Assembly (NCBI GenBank): GCA_030345135.1
Contig: CP128386.1
Coordinates: 2,311,356 to 2,375,355 of the forward strand
DNA: 64,000 nucleotides
Reading direction: 5' to 3'
Source: Chitinophagaceae bacterium DXS
GTDB taxonomy: Bacteria > Bacteroidota > Bacteroidia > Chitinophagales > Chitinophagaceae
In this document: piece by piece, positions 1 to 61,515 of the stretch
Layout of the letters: each line of letters starts with the position of its first letter
Numbering within the stretch: the stretch's first letter is position 1
The notes under the pieces: generated by a model
What the model was told of the DNA's origin: nothing
Seen by the model: the letters and a program-made list of their open reading frames with translations, nothing else
Database searches by the model: none
Translations under genes and position numbers: made by a program

Positions 1-356
1 TCTAAAATCATTAATTTTTGCATTCAGACTGTCACTGTTAATTGACCTGCTGCACCTAAACAAATCAGACATCCTCAAATCAGAGATCAGCGATTAATTT
101 ATTTCTTCACCAACGATGCGTCATACAATTTCTGATGTCTGATTTGATGATCTCTGATTTCTTCAGCACTAAGACGCTAATTAATTGCGAAGAACCTTCT
201 TCTAAAATCATTAATTTTTGCATTCAGACTGTCACTGTTAATTGACCTGCTGCACCTAAACAAATCAGACATCCTCAAATCAGAGATCAGCGATTAATTG
301 AACTGCTGCACTTAATCAAATCAGACTTCAGCAAATCAGACATCAGCGATCTCCTT
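1..356. repeat. Tandem direct repeat and outward heptamer arrays downstream of the GH2 gene
   Basis: Bases 1-99 and 201-299 are identical, an exact 99-base direct repeat at offset 200 that may continue left of the window. Both copies end in degenerate words of the type AAATCAGA and ATCAGCGAT. Between them lie a short coding relic (99-137) and words in the opposite sense (132-170). Bases 300-356, next to the stop codon of the glycosidase, carry the same word family; read away from that gene the array begins AGATCGCTGATGTCTGATTT, which is the same 20 bases that follow etfA near 17995. No gene is seen here. The layout suggests a duplicated gene end plus its trailer, most of the second gene having been lost. 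Confidence 0.85.
99..137 (-). pseudogene. Relic of the last 12 codons of a second GH2 gene
   Basis: Read leftwards this encodes HQKLYDASLVKK and a stop, exactly the last 12 residues of the intact glycosidase at 357-2192. The 39 bases differ from the intact copy at three positions, all synonymous third-codon changes. Upstream of the histidine codon the similarity ends at once. The synonymous pattern indicates that the relic diverged while it was still part of a translated gene, so it is probably the stump of a tandem paralogue and not a fresh partial copy. It is followed directly by the 99-base repeat, which also trails the intact gene. Confidence 0.75.
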
Positions 357-2192
357 TTATTTTTTCACCAACGATGCATCATACAATTTTTGATGCAAAC
401 TCTTCAAGCTGGCAGCTGGCATTTTGGTTACTTTTCTGTCATAAGTCATCAGGCCGTTTGTTTCAACTTCCACATCTGTTGTTTGGGTATACACAGCGGC
501 AGACAATCCTTTGCGGATCAGATCAGGAAATTTGTCTACCATAGCGGAATATCTTTTCAACAAGTCGTCACTGTTTTTAAAAGTCTGGTAACCCCAGTTG
601 TCCTTTTGCTGCCATGTGTGGCCTTCAACAGGTAAACCCAGTCCGCCGAACTCTCCTAATACAATTGCTCTTTTGCTTCCAAATAATACCGGATCCGGCA
701 TTGCGGGATCAGGATAGTTGTGCAGGTCTATGATATGTCCCACGTCATGAAAATTACCTCCACTTGCTGTGTTTACAACCCTTGAAGGATCTTTCTTCAT
801 GGTCCAGTTCACAATATCTTCCGTTTTAAATTGTCCCCATGCTTCATTGAAAGGTGTCCATACAATGATAGAGGGGAAGTTGTGTAATGCCTCCATGATA
901 GCGTTCCACTCAGTGCGGTAGATGTTCTCTGATTCAGCAGTGCGGTCCTTATCAGTCGCTCGTCCTACTATAGCAGGTCTTGGTTCCCAACGATTGCCGA
1001 GGTCACCACTTGGCATGTCCTGCCAAACAAGCATCCCTTCTTTATCGCAGTAATAATACCAACGTGCAGGTTCCACTTTAACATGTTTACGGATCATGTT
1101 AAAGCCCATTTCTTTTGTCTTTACAATATCAAATTTCAAGGCCTCATCTGTTGGGGCAGTGTACAAGCCATCAGGCCACCAACCCTGATCCAGCGGGCCA
1201 TATTGAAAAACAAATTCATTGTTCAGCAGCATTCTTTGAATACCATTTTTATCAACGCCAATGCTTGATTTGCGCATCGCGAAATAGCTTTTTACTTCAT
1301 CCACCACTTTCCCGTTGCGGACAATTTGAACAGACAGATCATATAAGAACGGCTGTGCAGGTGACCAAAGTTTAGGACTGGAAATCTCCAGTTCTATATC
1401 GTTGCTGTTGCTGCTTTTTTCAACCAGTTTTTGTGCACCGTCAAACGCCGTAACTTTTATAAGATCGCCTTGCTGAAGGTTCTCTGTATTGGCTACAATA
1501 TTTACTGTCTTTTTATCTATGTCGGGTGTTTGTACAGTTGATGAAATGTAAGTTGAAGGAACTGTTTCCATCCAAACAGTTTGCCAGATGCCGGTTACCG
1601 GTGTGTACCAGATCCCTTCCGGCTTCTTTACCTGTTTACCGCGAGGCTGAGGACCATCATCCGAAGGATCCCAAACACGCACACTTACTTCTTGTTGTGA
1701 CCCTTTTTTAATTAACGATGTAATATCAAGCGTAAAAGGATCATATCCGCCTTTGTGACTGCCTGCAGGCTGGCCGTTCACAAACACGTCGCATAACCAA
1801 TCTACCGCTCCAAAATGCAGCAATACTTTTTTATTCTTTACAGGTGAAATAGTCAGAGTTCTTTTGTACCAAAGCACACTATCTTTCCCCACTGTTTTTG
1901 CAACGCCTGACAAAGCAGATTCTACCGCATATGGCACGAGAATGTTACCATCAAACTTCGCAGGCATATTCTCCTGTTGTGCTTTTGGCTGAATAGCATA
2001 TTGCCACAAACCATTAAGGTTTACCCACTCTGTTCTTGTCATCTGCGGACGAGGGTACTCAGGCAATGGCTTATCTGCTGTTACACTGGCCGACCATTCC
2101 GTTGTGATTTTACCTGGCGCAATGGCCCATTGTGCTTCGCTTTTAAGTAAGAGAAATGCGCTGACACATGTGAAGAAAAGACGTTTTTTCAT
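357..2192 (-). CDS. Secreted glycoside hydrolase family 2 protein
   Basis: A 611-residue family 2 glycosidase (beta-galactosidase/beta-glucuronidase/mannosidase superfamily). A signal peptide (about residues 1-20, ending SEAQ) predicts export to the periplasm or outer surface. Next come the N-terminal sugar-binding jelly roll (about 45-210), the immunoglobulin-like domain (about 215-310) and the TIM barrel (about 315-600). The acid/base glutamate of the family's NE motif is E450 (context FNEAWGQ) and the probable nucleophile is E514 (context LGEFGG). It is shorter than LacZ and lacks its C-terminal domains, as usual for Bacteroidota polysaccharide-locus enzymes. It lies downstream of the SusC/SusD locus but behind a terminator, so it may have its own promoter. 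The exact sugar specificity cannot be read from sequence. Confidence 0.92.
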   Translation of the reverse strand: MKKRLFFTCVSAFLLLKSEAQWAIAPGKITTEWSASVTADKPLPEYPRPQMTRTEWVNLNGLWQYAIQPKAQQENMPAKFDGNILVPYAVESALSGVAKTVGKDSVLWYKRTLTISPVKNKKVLLHFGAVDWLCDVFVNGQPAGSHKGGYDPFTLDITSLIKKGSQQEVSVRVWDPSDDGPQPRGKQVKKPEGIWYTPVTGIWQTVWMETVPSTYISSTVQTPDIDKKTVNIVANTENLQQGDLIKVTAFDGAQKLVEKSSNSNDIELEISSPKLWSPAQPFLYDLSVQIVRNGKVVDEVKSYFAMRKSSIGVDKNGIQRMLLNNEFVFQYGPLDQGWWPDGLYTAPTDEALKFDIVKTKEMGFNMIRKHVKVEPARWYYYCDKEGMLVWQDMPSGDLGNRWEPRPAIVGRATDKDRTAESENIYRTEWNAIMEALHNFPSIIVWTPFNEAWGQFKTEDIVNWTMKKDPSRVVNTASGGNFHDVGHIIDLHNYPDPAMPDPVLFGSKRAIVLGEFGGLGLPVEGHTWQQKDNWGYQTFKNSDDLLKRYSAMVDKFPDLIRKGLSAAVYTQTTDVEVETNGLMTYDRKVTKMPAASLKSLHQKLYDASLVKK

Positions 2193-12643: not shown

Positions 12644-14305
12644 CTACTTCTTCATCTCCTTTGCCCACGCATCTTTCAGCGTAACGGTTCTGTTGAATAC
12701 CATTTTTTCCTCACTGGTGTCTTTATCCAATGTAAAATATCCTTTGCGCAGGAATTGATAGCGCTCATCAAATTTGGCGGTCTTCAACGAAGGTTCTGCA
12801 TAAGCATTATTTACCGTTACCAACGATTCCGGATTTATGTAATCTCTGAAATCGCCATCTTCTGAAGCCGGATCTTCTATTTGGAACAACCTGTCGTACT
12901 GTCTTACTTCTACTGTTATTGCATGCTGAACACTTACCCAGTGCAATGTTCCTTTAACTTTTATTGTAGACTGATCATGACCGCTTTTGCTTTCCGGCAA
13001 ATAGGTACAGTGTATTTCAGTAACGTAACCATGCTCATCCTTGATCACTTCATCACATTTAATGATATAAGCACTTTTCAGGCGGACCATTTGTCCGGGT
13101 GCAAGACGGAAATATTTCTTGGGAGGATTTTCCATGAAATCCTCTCTCTCGATATACAACTCGCGGCTAAAAGGAATTTCGCGGTGTGTTGTCTCAGGAT
13201 CTTCCGGATTGTTCTCGCTTTGCATCATTTCCACCAGGCCTTCCTCATAGTTGGTTAAAACCACCTTCACAGGATCAAACACAACCATTCTTCTTTGTGC
13301 AATCTTGTTCAAATGTTCTCTCACACAAAATTCAAGCAAACCAAGATCAGCTGAATTCTCTCTTTTTGCTATGCCTATCCTGTCGCAAAAATCACGTACA
13401 CTCTCAGAAGTAAAGCCTCTTCTCCGCAAGCCAGCAATGGTTGGCATACGCGGGTCATCCCATCCCGTAACATATTTTTCATTTACAAGCTGTAACAATT
13501 TTCGCTTACTGGTTACAGTATAATTGAGGTTTCTGCGTGCAAATTCATATTGATGAGACGGATATATTTCCAGTTTTTCAATTAACCAATCGTATAGTTC
13601 GCGGTGCGGAACAAACTCCAGCGTGCAAATGGAATGCGTTACTTTTTCAATAGAATCGCTTTGTCCGTGCGCAAAATCATACATCGGGTAGATGCACCAT
13701 GCATCTCCGGTTCTGTGATGATGGGCATGTTTAATTCGGTATAAAACAGGATCGCGCATCAGCATGTTGGCGTGTGCCATATCTATCTTCGCCCTTAACG
13801 TGCGGCTGCCGTCCGGAAATTCACCGTTCTTCATTCGGGCAAATAAATCCAGGTTCTCTTCAGTGCCGCGATCACGGAAAGGACTGTTTTTACCCGGTTC
13901 TGTTGGCGTTCCTTTCATTTGCGCCATCTCTTCAGATGTTGAATCGTCAACATAGGCCAATCCCTTCGAAATCAGTTTAACGGCGTATTCATATAAGGTT
14001 GCAAAGTAATCAGATGCGTACAGTTCATTTTTCCATTCAAAACCAAGCCAGCGTACATCGTCTTTAATGCTTTCCACGTATTCGGTGTCTTCTGTAACAG
14101 GGTTTGTATCATCAAAACGCAGGTTGGTATAGCCGCCGTATTTTTGTGTTAGTCCAAAGTTCAGACAAATGCTGGTTGCATGGCCTATATGTAAATATCC
14201 ATTTGGTTCAGGAGGAAAACGGGTAACTATATCTTTGTATTTACCGCTCTTTAAATCTTCTTCAATGATTTCTTCTAAAAAATTCAAACTCTTTTCTTCG
14301 CTCAT
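12644..14305 (-). CDS. glnS: Glutaminyl-tRNA synthetase
   Basis: Charges tRNA-Gln with glutamine in the cytoplasm. The start is the ATG at 14305 (MSEEKSLNFLEEII, 553 residues); extension to 14329 would need a TTG inside the promoter. Class I signature motifs are visible: RFPPEPNGYLHIGHA (HIGH motif, about residue 40) and the KMSKS equivalent TVTSKRKLLQL. The C-terminal beta-barrel anticodon-binding domain occupies about 335-550. Length matches bacterial GlnRS. It is a single gene with its own terminator and -7 box. Confidence 0.97.
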   Translation of the reverse strand: MSEEKSLNFLEEIIEEDLKSGKYKDIVTRFPPEPNGYLHIGHATSICLNFGLTQKYGGYTNLRFDDTNPVTEDTEYVESIKDDVRWLGFEWKNELYASDYFATLYEYAVKLISKGLAYVDDSTSEEMAQMKGTPTEPGKNSPFRDRGTEENLDLFARMKNGEFPDGSRTLRAKIDMAHANMLMRDPVLYRIKHAHHHRTGDAWCIYPMYDFAHGQSDSIEKVTHSICTLEFVPHRELYDWLIEKLEIYPSHQYEFARRNLNYTVTSKRKLLQLVNEKYVTGWDDPRMPTIAGLRRRGFTSESVRDFCDRIGIAKRENSADLGLLEFCVREHLNKIAQRRMVVFDPVKVVLTNYEEGLVEMMQSENNPEDPETTHREIPFSRELYIEREDFMENPPKKYFRLAPGQMVRLKSAYIIKCDEVIKDEHGYVTEIHCTYLPESKSGHDQSTIKVKGTLHWVSVQHAITVEVRQYDRLFQIEDPASEDGDFRDYINPESLVTVNNAYAEPSLKTAKFDERYQFLRKGYFTLDKDTSEEKMVFNRTVTLKDAWAKEMKK

Positions 14306-15538: not shown

Positions 15539-15612
15539 CTTTTTGCAGCCAAGGGATTTGCATCCCCAGTGCAGGGCTCCTTATGTTTCCCAATTAGGAG
15601 CCCATTTTTTTT
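15539..15612 (+). ncRNA. Candidate small RNA with two hairpins
   Basis: In the 400-base gap between two leftward genes the forward strand shows a -7-like TACTTTTTG (15537-15545), a small hairpin GGGAT/ATCCC (15553-15566), and a strong terminator: GGGCTCCT (15574-15581) paired with AGGAGCCC (15596-15603), then eight T. No forward gene lies upstream for this terminator to serve, and on the reverse strand the stem is not followed by T, so it does not fit the TPR gene. A transcript of about 60-70 nt is the simplest reading. The promoter spacing is not ideal. The rest of the gap (15270-15500) shows nothing clear. Confidence 0.35.
15574..15612 (+). terminator. Forward-strand terminator without an upstream gene
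   Basis: Eight-pair stem GGGCTCCT/AGGAGCCC followed by ATTTTTTTT. It could end the candidate small RNA at 15539 or block antisense reading into the TPR gene. Confidence 0.7.
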
Positions 15613-15645
15613 AGCTTTCAGCAATCAGCTTTTAGCTTTCAGCTA
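15612..15645 (-). repeat. Heptamer array, AGCTATC family, outward from the TPR gene stop
   Basis: On the reverse strand AGCTGAA, AGCTAAA, AGCTGAT and similar units point away from the stop of the TPR gene at 15672. Confidence 0.65.
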
Positions 15646-17014: not shown

Positions 17015-17977
17015 ATGTCAGTTTTAGTATACATAGATCACTCAGATGGCCACATAAAAAAATCTTCGTTTGAAGCGCTTAGTTACGGAGCAGCAGTTGC
17101 AAAACAACTGGGTTTACCCGCAGAAGCCTTATTGCTTGGAACAGTTACAGACGATTTAAGTGCACTTGGCAAATATGGCGTTGCTACTATTCAACAGGTA
17201 AATAATGATAGTCTTAATCACCTGGATGCTCAGGTTCAAACGAAGGTAATAGCCGAAGCGGTACAATCAACCGGCGCTACAATTGTTGTATTCTCCCACA
17301 ATCAAACAGGAAAGGCGCTGGCGCCGAGAGTCGCCGCCAGCCTAAAAGCAGGCTTGGTGACCGGAGCAGTTGCATTGCCGGACACATCTTCCGGATTTGT
17401 TGTGAAGAAATCTGTTTTCAGTGGTAAAGCTTTTGCGAACGTTAACATTACGTCTCCTGTAAAAGTGATCTCGTTAAATCCTAACAGTTATAAAACAGTA
17501 GCGGGCGACGACAAGCCAGCCTCCGTTAATCTGCTAAATATCGCAGTTGAAGATTCCAGGGTAAAAGTTACTGCTGTGAATAAAGTAAAAGGTGAAGTGC
17601 CGTTGACCGAAGCCGACATTGTTGTAAGTGGTGGCCGTGGTTTAAAAGGACCGGAGAACTGGGGCATTGTGGAAGACCTTGCGCATGCATTGCATGCTGC
17701 AACCGCGTGTAGCCGTCCGGTTGCTGACAGTCATTGGAGGCCGCATCACGAACATGTTGGACAAACCGGCATCCAGATAGCACCAAACTTATATATAGCG
17801 ATTGGTATTTCCGGGGCTATTCAACATCTTGCCGGAGTAAACCGCAGCAAACATATCGTAGTAATCAACAAAGATCCTGAAGCACCATTTTTTAAAGCAG
17901 CGGATTATGGCATAGTTGGCGACGCTTTTGACGTTGTGCCGAAATTGACGGAGGAGATAAAGAAAATCAGACAGTAG
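17015..17977 (+). CDS. etfA: Electron transfer flavoprotein alpha subunit
   Basis: A 320-residue FAD-binding partner of EtfB. The N-terminal domain is about 1-185. The C-terminal FAD domain contains VSGGRGLKGPENWGIVEDLAHAL, then SRPVADSHW, the signature HVGQTGIQIAPNLYIAIGISGAIQHLAG and INKDPEAPFFKAADYGIVGD, all strongly conserved in EtfA. It transfers electrons from fatty-acid or amino-acid dehydrogenases to the quinone pool. It is the second gene of the etfBA operon; the stop codon is followed by a heptamer array and then by a terminator shared with the convergent gene. Confidence 0.97.
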   Translation: MSVLVYIDHSDGHIKKSSFEALSYGAAVAKQLGLPAEALLLGTVTDDLSALGKYGVATIQQVNNDSLNHLDAQVQTKVIAEAVQSTGATIVVFSHNQTGKALAPRVAASLKAGLVTGAVALPDTSSGFVVKKSVFSGKAFANVNITSPVKVISLNPNSYKTVAGDDKPASVNLLNIAVEDSRVKVTAVNKVKGEVPLTEADIVVSGGRGLKGPENWGIVEDLAHALHAATACSRPVADSHWRPHHEHVGQTGIQIAPNLYIAIGISGAIQHLAGVNRSKHIVVINKDPEAPFFKAADYGIVGDAFDVVPKLTEEIKKIRQ

Positions 17978-17994
17978 TAGTTGTAGATCGCTGA

Positions 17995-18095
17995 TGTCTG
18001 ATTTAAGATCTCTGATATGAAGATGTCTGATCGCTGATTTAAGAACCGCTGATTTCTGATTTGAAGATGTCTGATCTGGACATGTCTGATTTTTG
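17995..18095 (+). repeat. Long heptamer array, GATGTCT family, outward from etfA
   Basis: About 14 degenerate units (GATCGCT, GATGTCT, GATTTAA, GATCTCT and so on) run away from the etfA stop. It begins with the same 20 bases as the array after the GH2 gene. A facing array lies at 18247-18306 beyond the terminator, so the gap can fold as a long imperfect hairpin. Confidence 0.85.
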
Positions 18096-18138
18096 AGATG
18101 CAACGATATAATTACGCTCCGCAACATTTATATTTATA

Positions 18139-18177
18139 GAAAAGCCGTTTGAATCAGTGTTTCAAACGGCTTTTTGA
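18139..18177. terminator. Bidirectional terminator between etfA and the convergent gene
   Basis: Thirteen-pair stem, arms AAAGCCGTTTGAA (18141-18153) and TTCAAACGGCTTT (18161-18173), with A on the left and T on the right, so it can work on both strands. It sits between the two facing repeat arrays. Confidence 0.9.
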
Positions 18178-18246
18178 ATGTAATCTTATATCGAGCCTGC
18201 TTATAACTTAAAAGCTTTACAGTTCAGTGAACCTGCCTGCACTAAA

Positions 18247-18306
18247 ACAAATCAGCGTTCCTTAGATCAGCGATCAGACATCGTCACATCAGGCATCAGC
18301 GATCTT
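18247..18306 (-). repeat. Heptamer array, GATGTCT family, outward from the 260-residue protein gene
   Basis: On the reverse strand it begins directly after the stop with AGATCGCTGATGCCTGATGT and continues with GATGTCT and GATCGCT. It faces the etfA array. Confidence 0.8.
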
Positions 18307-22227: not shown

Positions 22228-22261
22228 CTGTGCTTTTTTTTGTAAATATCTGTGATTCGGA

Positions 22262-22345
22262 GCTATCAGCTGTCAGCTATCAGCTATCAGCGGTGGGGTG
22301 TCAGGTATCAGGTAACAGGCTTGAGGTTTGAGGTTTGAGGCGTGA
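22262..22345 (+). repeat. Composite heptamer array outward from the LOG gene start
   Basis: Three families occur in the order AGCTATC (about four units), then GTATCAG, then GTTTGAG/GCGTGAG. The same order is found after folD (59754-59830). A facing copy with the same order lies at 22394-22560, so the 363-base gap is a large imperfect inverted repeat. Confidence 0.85.
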
Positions 22346-22393
22346 GGAATGAAATTCGCAATTCTGCGCTGGCTATCTTTCTGTTTTGTACTT

Positions 22394-22560
22394 CAAGCTT
22401 TATACCTCATCCCTCCGCTTCACGCCTTAAGCCTCACAATTCATTCATCAAAAGACATCAAAGCTCTTTCCTTCCATCAATCTATCCTCACACCTTACAC
22501 CTTACACCTTATACCTCATACCTGAAACCTGATACCTGAAACCTGGCACCTAAAAGCTCA
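22394..22560 (-). repeat. Composite heptamer array outward from the symporter gene
   Basis: Read leftwards from the symporter start: AGCTATG, then GTGCCAG, GTTTCAG, GTATCAG, then GTATGAG, GTATAAG, GTGTAAG. It is the mirror image of the array at 22262-22345. Confidence 0.85.
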
Positions 22561-29025: not shown

Positions 29026-29907
29026 TTATTTAGCCGACGGCGGAGCCACTTCGTCACATGAATATTGGATGGTTCTTATTCCACCGTCAGAATCTGTAAG
29101 TTTATTCAGCTGACCAATAAATACATCCTGCCATCCCGGAGGAAATACATTTTTTCCGAAAGAGTTTGCCCAGCCACCGGAATTGAAATCATAAAACATT
29201 TCAGAAGCATTCTTGCTGTAATCCCTGTCTATTAGCATGAAAACCGAATTAAGTTGACGTGGGCTTTTTTTGGTCAGGTCGTATGTCAACAACCTTCCAT
29301 ATCCAAGATCAGCCAGGTCTTCATTGGAGTATGTATAATCATTCCATGGATTCAATTCAAGATTACCATTTTGATCATATTTATAGTTTCTGGTGCCATC
29401 GTTGATAACACGACCTGAATCATCAAGATGAAGCGTAAACTCGCCGGTTTGTACGATTGTATGCGCATCAGGATACGTGAAAGTATGATGAGCCAGCTGA
29501 TTAGGATGATAAGAACTGGCTGTATTATACTCTATAAGCCTGCCTTGGCCATCATATTTAAAATAAGAATTCTGTGGCCCCCCGTTTATATTAAGAGAGA
29601 GGGCAGTATCCTTGCTAAAAGGTTTCCAGATGATGCTATCCAGCAATCCGCTTGCATTGTAATAAAATTTGCTGACAACGGGTATTTGCACCTGGTAGTC
29701 AATATTGCAATCTCCTGTTTGACAAGAGTCATAACCCGGATGGTAAATATCAAACTCTACTAGTTCTGTGGTACTTACTATCCTGCATGCAGGGGTTTCA
29801 GGTGGTTTCGGAGTGTGATCAATACAGTCAATAAGTTTTTTACAGCTAGTGGTTGAAAGAGCGGCAATAAGGGTTAGGCCAAGTAACAAGTTTTTTGATA
29901 GGTTCAT
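29026..29907 (-). CDS. Lipoprotein with YD-repeat-like units
   Basis: A 293-residue lipoprotein (signal about 1-21, lipobox STTSC). The mature part has several degenerate repeats of RHS/YD type: FYYNASGLLDSIIW, FKYDGQGRLIEYNTAS, KYDQNGNLELNPWNDYTY. Similar proteins are common in Bacteroidota and are usually annotated as hypothetical or DUF-type lipoproteins. Function unknown; a surface role is likely. A second, frameshifted copy lies 220 bases downstream of its start side (30127-31019). Confidence 0.75.
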   Translation of the reverse strand: MNLSKNLLLGLTLIAALSTTSCKKLIDCIDHTPKPPETPACRIVSTTELVEFDIYHPGYDSCQTGDCNIDYQVQIPVVSKFYYNASGLLDSIIWKPFSKDTALSLNINGGPQNSYFKYDGQGRLIEYNTASSYHPNQLAHHTFTYPDAHTIVQTGEFTLHLDDSGRVINDGTRNYKYDQNGNLELNPWNDYTYSNEDLADLGYGRLLTYDLTKKSPRQLNSVFMLIDRDYSKNASEMFYDFNSGGWANSFGKNVFPPGWQDVFIGQLNKLTDSDGGIRTIQYSCDEVAPPSAK

Positions 29908-30059
29908 AAAGTTTTTCTTTCAAAATACATTGTGCATTTTAAAAAATCAATATATCAGTTAGATTTTAATCTTAAAATCGTCGAAATGAAAGCGGAATAT
30001 TTCAGTGCAATAAAGCGCCCATTTGCCGCCACTTAATTTTGCGATCCACCCGTCTTAAA

Positions 30060-30093
30060 AAAGTAAAACCCATCTTTATAGAAAGATGGGTTT
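30060..30093 (-). terminator. Terminator of the second YD-repeat lipoprotein gene
   Basis: Perfect 12-pair stem, AAACCCATCTTT (30066-30077) with AAAGATGGGTTT (30082-30093), followed leftwards by a T-rich tract. Confidence 0.75.
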
Positions 30094-30126
30094 ATCAAAA
30101 GTGCTTTTTATCAGCAAGTACTAATC

Positions 30127-31019
30127 CTATTTCTTCGAAGGAGGTGTTTCTGTGCAAGCGTATTGTATTGACCGGTCACCCATGCCATAATACTCGCCTG
30201 TATAGGGCAGTTCATAAAACAATATATCCTGCCAACCCATTGGATAGTTATGATCAGGGCCACCGTGCCTTTGGGGGTATCCGTCCGCATTAAACTCAGT
30301 AAATAATTCCGACGGATTTTTACTGAAGTCTAAATCAAGAAACATGAACACCCAATTGAGCTGGCGTGGTGTTTTTTTATCCAATGTATAAGCCAGCCGT
30401 TTATATCCTAAGTAATCATCAACGTCTTCAACACTCCCCCAATCGAAATTATTGAAGGGATTGATTTGGAGATTGCCGTTGCTATCATATTCAAATGTGC
30501 GGTTTCCCGTAGAAATAACGCGCATAGAATCGTCTAACACAAAGGTTCCGCCCTTGTTATCCTTTATCGTGTGTGCATCGGGATAAGTGAAGGTTGTCCA
30601 ATTTAAAGCGTTTATCGGCGTATTATCATAGCTATTTTTTGGCAAAACTCCAACTAACCTGTCTTGCGCATCATATCTAAAATAAAAATTATGGGGACCT
30701 TCAGAATTATGCCAGGTAACAGTAAAGTCGCCATAATTAGCTGGTACAGTATCTTTGCCGTAAGGTATCCAAACAATACTATCCGGATTCCCTTTTGCAT
30801 TGTAATAGAATTTCTTAACAATAGGTAACTTCCTGGAAAAATCCTGTATGCTATTTGTATAAAAATCCACCATTTCGGTAGTGCTGATTATTTTACAGCC
30901 GGCAACAGTTGACTGGGCTCACCGGGTTTAGTTACACAGTCTATAAATTTTTTACAACTGGTTGTAGAAAGAGCGCCAATAAAGGTGAGGGCAAGTAGCA
31001 AGTTTTTTGAGAGGTTCAT
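30127..31019 (-). pseudogene. Frameshifted paralogue of the YD-repeat-like lipoprotein
   Basis: The ATG at 31019 opens MNLSKNLLLALTFIGALSTTSCKKFIDC, nearly identical to the signal region of the neighbour, but that frame stops at 30888 after 43 codons. The remaining 248 codons are open in another frame from before 30873 (CKIISTTEMVDFY onward) and align with the paralogue's body (FYYNAKGNPDSIVW, FEYDSNGNLQINPF). A single lost base between about 30915 and 30935 explains it. Either the gene is inactive or the base is a sequencing error. Translation from the ATG at 30873 would give a protein without a signal peptide, which is unlikely to work. Confidence 0.8.
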
Positions 31020-31169
31020 AAAGTTTTTCTTTCAAAATACATCGCGGTATTTTAAAACGCAATAGGTAAACATCACCTTTCAGATTAAAATCGGTAAACA
31101 CGTCAGCGATTAAACTTATACAATTCAAATTCAATGTTATTTACATGAATTCGCCATTGGCCAACAAAT

Positions 31170-36127: not shown

Positions 36128-36226
36128 CCGCAGACCTGACACCTGACACCTGATACCTGAAACCTGACAACCTTACTAATTTTTAACCAAAGCTGAAAGC
36201 TCATAGCTGACAGCTGATAGCTATTA
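36128..36226 (-). repeat. Composite heptamer array outward from rdgB start
   Basis: Read leftwards from rdgB: AGCTATC, AGCTGTC, AGCTATG, AGCTTTC, then GTTTCAG, GTATCAG, GTGTCAG. The same order of families occurs at the LOG/symporter gap and after folD. Confidence 0.85.
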
Positions 36227-41026: not shown

Positions 41027-41245
41027 GCATTCATTTTCAATTCTCAATTTTCAGCTTTCAATTATATCACTCATTCGCACATCTGCAAATTCGCACATCT
41101 GCACATTCACACATTTGCACATTTCCCCTTCTTCAATTCTCCATTTTCAACTTTCAATTATTTTACTCATTCGCACATTTGCATATTCGCACATTCCCCC
41201 ATCCGCACCTGCATTTTCAATTCTCCATTTTCAACTTTCAATTAA
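41027..41245 (-). repeat. TTGAAAG / GTGCAAAT arrays outward from the thiolase stop
   Basis: On the reverse strand, blocks TTGAAAG, TTGAAAA, TGGAGAA, TTGAAAA alternate with octamers GTGCGAAT, ATGCAAAT, GTGCGAAT. Three TTGAAAG blocks occur at about 41055, 41152 and 41236, spaced 97 and 84 bases, so the composite itself is tandemly repeated. Confidence 0.8.
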
Positions 41246-61204: not shown

Positions 61205-61515
61205 ATTGCTTCATTTTCATATCCACACATTTTCATATTCACTTATTTGCAACTTTCAATTATCAATTATTTCACCAGATTCGCACATTTACCCATTTGC
61301 ATATTTGCACATTCGCACGTCATTTTCAATTTCCAACTTTCAATTATCAATTATTTCACCCCATCCGCACATTTACCCATTCGCATATTTGCACATTTCC
61401 ACACATTGTCAATTTTCAACTTTCAATTTTCAATTATCTCACTTCATCCGCACATTTACCCATTTGCACATTTGCACATTCCCACATCATTTTCGATTTT
61501 CAATTCTCCATTAAT
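61205..61515 (-). repeat. Three-unit tandem repeat of 83-84 bases made of heptamer and octamer words
   Basis: Units start near 61251, 61335 and 61418. Read leftwards from the amidohydrolase gene each contains TTGATAA/TTGAAAA, TTGAAAG, TTGAAAA, then octamers GTGCGAAT, GTGCAAAT, ATGCAAAT, GGTAAATG, GTGCGGAT, and a GTGAAATAA link. Single copies of the same composite stand near 19515 and 41027. Long open frames on the forward strand here are repeat artefacts. Confidence 0.9.

Follow-up and report, generated by a model that had tools for sequence, protein, structure and literature searches.

The first lines of the analysed DNA hold a short stump of coding sequence which the evidence supports as a real remnant of the 3' end of the neighbouring, intact GH2-family glycosidase gene, together with its trailer (Table 1). 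The stretch of 64,000 nucleotides from which they come (G000:C1:2311356-2375355; hereafter the window) belongs to a 7.29-Mb single-scaffold genome, the only genome of its genus. From sequence comparison we tentatively favour, at slightly under even confidence, the view that the stump may be the previous GH2 3' end, displaced by the one-sided import of a related allele.

Table 1. Features of the GH2 locus (window positions) and of other genes with 3'-end stumps (positions within the named stretch)
Feature	Position	Strand	Stump	Basis
GH2-family glycosidase gene, intact, 611 aa	357..2192	-		ORF list; Pfam Glyco_hydro_2 domains
Stump, copy of the last 12 GH2 codons and stop (132-137 are junction bases)	98..137	-		Alignment, translation, genome search
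Junction, 5-base microhomology (TGATG, plus strand) between GH2 end and repeat-rich flank	131..137			Letters compared
Trailer copy left of stump, left end cut by 100-N gap	1..99			Sequence comparison
172-base trailer copy on the GH2 side of the stump, 169/172 against left copy	128..299			Sequence comparison
56-base unit, two copies, 87% matches; GH2-proximal one missing from stump-side copy	238..350			Repeat comparison
Dispersed-repeat members, core ATCAGANATCAG, both orientations	56..346			Genome word search
MacB/FtsX permease gene	L192 12596-15019 (also L192a)		15561-15617	Pfam
M1 peptidase gene	L224 10972-12831		12975-13077	Pfam
cydB	L263 10214-11317		Two copies, each with a one-base deletion (by eye)	Pfam
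moaA	L192 5422-6399		4753-4884	Pfam

The stump and its junction

Window positions 98-137 match 356-395 at 37 of 40 bases and, translated on the minus strand, both ends read HQKLYDASLVKK*; the copy of the last eleven or twelve GH2 codons, twelve in the original prediction, is real. Because a search of the 7.29 Mb with up to three mismatches allowed finds the stump core (108-131) at just two places, both chance and a dispersed repeat are excluded as its source. The two origins that the prediction had itself named as alternatives were both ruled out: a dispersed repeat by this count, and the tail of some intact but unrelated gene by the finding that the stump is covered by no ORF of at least 80 aa.

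At 131-137 the stump changes from GH2-like to trailer-like sequence. The junction letters are TTGATG in GH2, CTGATG in the left flank and CTGATG in the stump; the difference at base 132 (C versus T) equals the left-flank base (base 9832 of L009), and therefore belongs to the junction. Without it, two substitutions remain in about 34 bases, both synonymous transitions, so that of the three synonymous differences first reported two stand and the other is reassigned to the junction.

The trailer duplication and the assembly gap

Positions 1-99 match 201-299 exactly, as had been reported, but the left edge of this 99-base repeat is artificial because base 1 directly follows a gap of exactly 100 N. 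Extension to the left, the check that the original prediction had proposed, met beyond these N 73 bases that repeat window 128-200 (70 identical), and further out a glutaminase A-like gene with its start towards the repeats; four relatives or more (L034, L057, L063 and L087) also have a homologue of the latter close after GH2. These 73 bases and window 1-99 make up the left trailer copy. With the gap closed, a trailer of 172 bases is present twice, with 3 mismatches, and is the real extent of the repeat. The accompanying claim that the trailer is more conserved than the coding end loses its statistical footing: the contrast obtained with the original counts (0/99 versus 3/39, P 0.02) becomes 2/170 versus 2/34 (Fisher test, P 0.13) once the junction base is removed. 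Stretches of this genome contain 11 runs of 100 N, most of them in or beside repeats (by eye), and two, those of the window and of L177, are in register with a tandem unit, on account of which the trailer copy number at the window locus should be taken as uncertain.

A dispersed intergenic repeat and tandem arrays

The trailer contains a dispersed intergenic repeat with the core ATCAGANATCAG, which has 114 matches in the genome, 52 in plus and 62 in minus orientation, against none for the reversed control. Of 55 repeat clusters in the fetched stretches, 50 overlap no predicted ORF of at least 80 aa, and the many intergenic copies, counted as 114 core matches, agree with what is expected of a MITE. 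In clusters of mixed orientation the minus copies all lie left of the plus copies in 14 of 18 cases, a layout that may reflect inverted ends of the element. A RAYT/REP system was considered; Y1_Tnp has 7 matches in the genome, none tied to the repeat. Across the family the core has a match in 246 of 294 genomes, with next highest counts of 78, 74, 55 and 45, while G019 and G121 are high for the reversed control instead; the genome pair G070/G149 also carries the repeat word. Noncoding tandem arrays (period at least 40) are common in this genome, with 14 in 800 kb sampled as evenly spaced stretches; two relatives together gave 2 in 400 kb.

Further repeats were noted in the window. An ATCAGA island with both orientations lies at 17964-18299, and an ORF ending near 17978 has its last codons inside the repeat word. 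Short-word tracts of AGCTATC, ACCTGAC and CATTTGCA, together with an 84-base array (3.1 copies), occupy 22261-22560, 36134-36222, 41072-41124 and 61212-61503; similar words recur in intergenic regions genome-wide.

As summarised in PMC4596501, the BrickBuilt minisatellite MITE of Porphyromonas gingivalis resembles the window repeat in being dispersed and intergenic in a member of the Bacteroidota, with tandem units; its inverted ends may also have a counterpart in the window repeat. The window repeat differs in sequence and unit. The TAACTGA heptamer repeats outlined in PMC4679880 for Beggiatoaceae, cyanobacteria and some Bacteroidetes are likewise short intergenic direct repeats of patchy distribution, whereas the repeat word of the window is a different one, degenerate and found in opposed orientations.

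Stumps elsewhere in the genome

In approximately 2.03 Mb of the genome, four more genes were found with a 3'-end stump beside the intact gene (Table 1); all five, the window's GH2 included, are Pfam-supported. The moaA locus (L192 4753-6399) is the clearest import-like scar, and a 141-aa ORF without a Pfam match lies between the gene and its stump. Read along the locus, moaA is followed by this opposite-strand ORF, next by a 133-base diverged copy of the moaA end and finally by an acetyltransferase-like ORF. At L224, the spacer before the stump also carries sequence from the next gene, PDDEXK_3, namely its final 27 bases with their flank (12901-12973 and 13379-13452), such that the ends of both neighbouring genes are copied there.

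A stop-anchored scan of stretches of this genome gave 9/951 ends (the window locus being counted four times) and 8/625, with interior-anchor controls of 9/2358 and 3/1552; in other Bacteroidota it gave 0/990 ends and 0/2666 interior anchors. A scan that allowed gaps took in 2.15 Mb of this genome's stretches, overlaps included (1349 ORFs, each 150 aa or longer), and in other Bacteroidota returned no 3'-end row in 1.46 Mb (918 ORFs). These comparisons, five stumps against none, weakly suggest an enrichment in the source genome, the window locus having been given and not found. Among 30 short loci from the G070/G149 search (78 ends, overlapping), one stump-like match (L273) fell in an ORF without a Pfam match and was left out of the counts. 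Also excluded were L110 (tandem GIY-YIG paralogues, Pfam-supported, whose two rows together have 2 synonymous and 5 nonsynonymous codons); L180, L200, L240 and L169, which are without a Pfam match; L252 5685-6239, an ORF running through an array and a gap, with one borderline Pfam match; and L001, L002, L009 and L090, which are the same locus as the window. A limited literature search returned no paper on such stumps, and we make no claim that they are unpublished. Elsewhere in the window, 29026-31023 holds two tandem paralogous minus-strand ORFs; the upstream one looks broken (by eye), with a signal-peptide-like start (about 30936-31020) out of frame with its body (30127-30873).

Synonymous differences in the stumps

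The differences between stumps and genes were compared with a model in which gene-side changes are synonymous only and stump-side changes neutral. The five stumps differ from their genes in 28 codons, 25 times synonymously, and the 3 nonsynonymous differences stand against 15-18 expected (P 7e-9 to 3e-6 for a transition bias of 1 to 8, an optimistic value for a set picked after inspection in which L224 supplies 10 of the 28). For these reasons the figure from ten Pfam-supported rows, excluding the L110 paralogues and the borderline ORF at L252 5685-6239, is safer: 29 of 41 differences are synonymous, with 12 nonsynonymous against 22-26 expected (P 6e-6 to 2e-3). Contrary rows were kept in this set, namely L249 PAP2 (3 synonymous, 4 nonsynonymous), L252 glycosyltransferase (0/2), L224 PDDEXK_3 (0/1), the window's Ham1 (0/1) and copy A of L263 (1/1, by eye). 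In ORFs that merely cross arrays (rows from L140, L142 and L252) differences are mostly nonsynonymous; therefore the method alone does not create the synonymous excess.

For the window locus alone, a neutral stump gives P 0.11-0.28, and the window by itself cannot show past selection. The original prediction that selection acted before the copy was lost is thus unsupported at this locus taken alone and holds up for the stumps as a class, which were probably functional gene ends before being orphaned, judging from their pooled differences. Most simply, the protein-respecting differences arose while both ends were functional, whether in two strains, as import would have it, or in two genes, as was first suggested. 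At L224 the tail is more divergent than the trailer (10/103 versus 1/76 differences, P 0.026).

Origin of the stumps

Under the import that we tentatively favour, the incoming DNA would have carried the 3' part of GH2, a trailer with the additional 56-base unit, and intergenic DNA rich in repeats. Homologous recombination would have taken place inside the GH2 gene, while the outer end, lying among the ATCAGA repeats, would have been joined through the 5-base microhomology into the last codons of the resident gene. The active gene would now end in a donor tail, with the resident tail and trailer left downstream. The sequence directly shows the remnant with its in-frame peptide, the junction, the trailer duplication, the dispersed repeat and the pooled synonymous excess in the stumps of this genome; the import itself, its donor and its direction are what we infer. 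The pooled excess and the 5-base microhomology at the window junction argue for import, and the single DprA gene of the genome was counted in its favour. The two sides also differ at four loci, as strain alleles might: by the extra 56-base unit in the window, in array length at L192a, by about 230 bases missing from one copy at L224 and by the 141-aa ORF before the moaA stump. Against import stand the window's failure to reject a neutral stump, the mere 3 differences in 172 between its trailer copies, and the joints of L192a and L224, where microhomology amounts to about one base at most or none (by eye); the excess divergence of the L224 tail argues against one uniform import.

Several of the same observations suit a simple tandem duplication at the locus, within an array of unstable intergenic repeats, with a unit reaching 34-39 bases into GH2. 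We consider such an event somewhat unlikely, and give the same weight to its corollary, that the stump was never functional and its two synonymous changes are due to chance or arose on the gene side. Noncoding tandem arrays are common here relative to two relatives, the window trailer copies are nearly identical, and the P value at the window is what neutrality would allow; yet neutral copies would hardly be expected to yield the pooled synonymous excess, and the 56-base difference requires a second event. At the window locus import and plain tandem duplication are not separated, and the latter is a close rival. If instead the tail and trailer were first duplicated in tandem and the gene was then replaced by a diverged allele through homologous recombination, the stump would be a fossil of the old allele. 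This would explain a diverged tail beside a near-identical trailer, most clearly at L224, but requires two events per locus, and the corresponding contrast in the window is not significant without the junction base; we regard it as quite improbable.

The original prediction held that the whole GH2 gene was duplicated in tandem, that both copies were kept for a while and that nearly all of one was then deleted. Synonymous differences would be expected here as well, and the remnant and trailer duplication that prompted this reading are real. A complete second gene is unnecessary, however, and its loss finds no echo among GH2 relatives: 80 loci with identity of at most 70% were kept (the first listed, from Pinibacter, at 68%), none from a sister species, and none has a second GH2 match within flanks of up to 6 kb. 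Elsewhere, too, the stumps are no more than short 3' ends next to an intact gene, the same pair of events would be required at unrelated genes (permease, peptidase, moaA and cydB), and the trailer ought to have diverged no more slowly than synonymous sites; we judge this reading very unlikely. An assembly artefact at the scaffold gap seems very improbable. The gap directly left of base 1 is in register with the repeat and most such gaps, by eye, lie in or beside repeats, but the stump differs from the gene tail within continuous sequence 98 bases from the gap, and no N run is listed near the other four stumps.

Relation to HFIR and implications

An arrangement of this kind could be produced in one event by homology-facilitated illegitimate recombination (HFIR), in which one joint forms by homology while the opposite one mostly shows 3-10 bases of microhomology (PMC3240628); the 5 bases at the putative illegitimate joint of the window fall in this range. 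HFIR is rare in the laboratory, and has been put forward as the origin of 3' regions left orphaned at T6SS and Rhs loci (PMC5361080). In the scars outlined in these two reports, as in the import proposed for the window, a new gene end is brought in and the old end is displaced just downstream, with microhomology at the outer joint. In contrast to the T6SS and Rhs cases described there, the putative displaced end in the window encodes the same peptide as the new one, and ordinary metabolic genes are concerned.

It is possible, though we lean slightly against it, that ordinary genes of this bacterium carry readable scars of one-sided import, in which the displaced 3' end persists next to the intact gene as a stump with synonymous divergence and repeat-rich intergenic arrays are favoured joining places. 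If so, a single genome would record which of its genes had been overwritten, how diverged the donors were and where the joins were made, without recourse to sister strains. The HFIR literature, in the accounts cited, concerns changes of cargo at T6SS and Rhs tips; the silent replacement of ordinary genes, if true, would leave the same HFIR-like scar, countable genome by genome.
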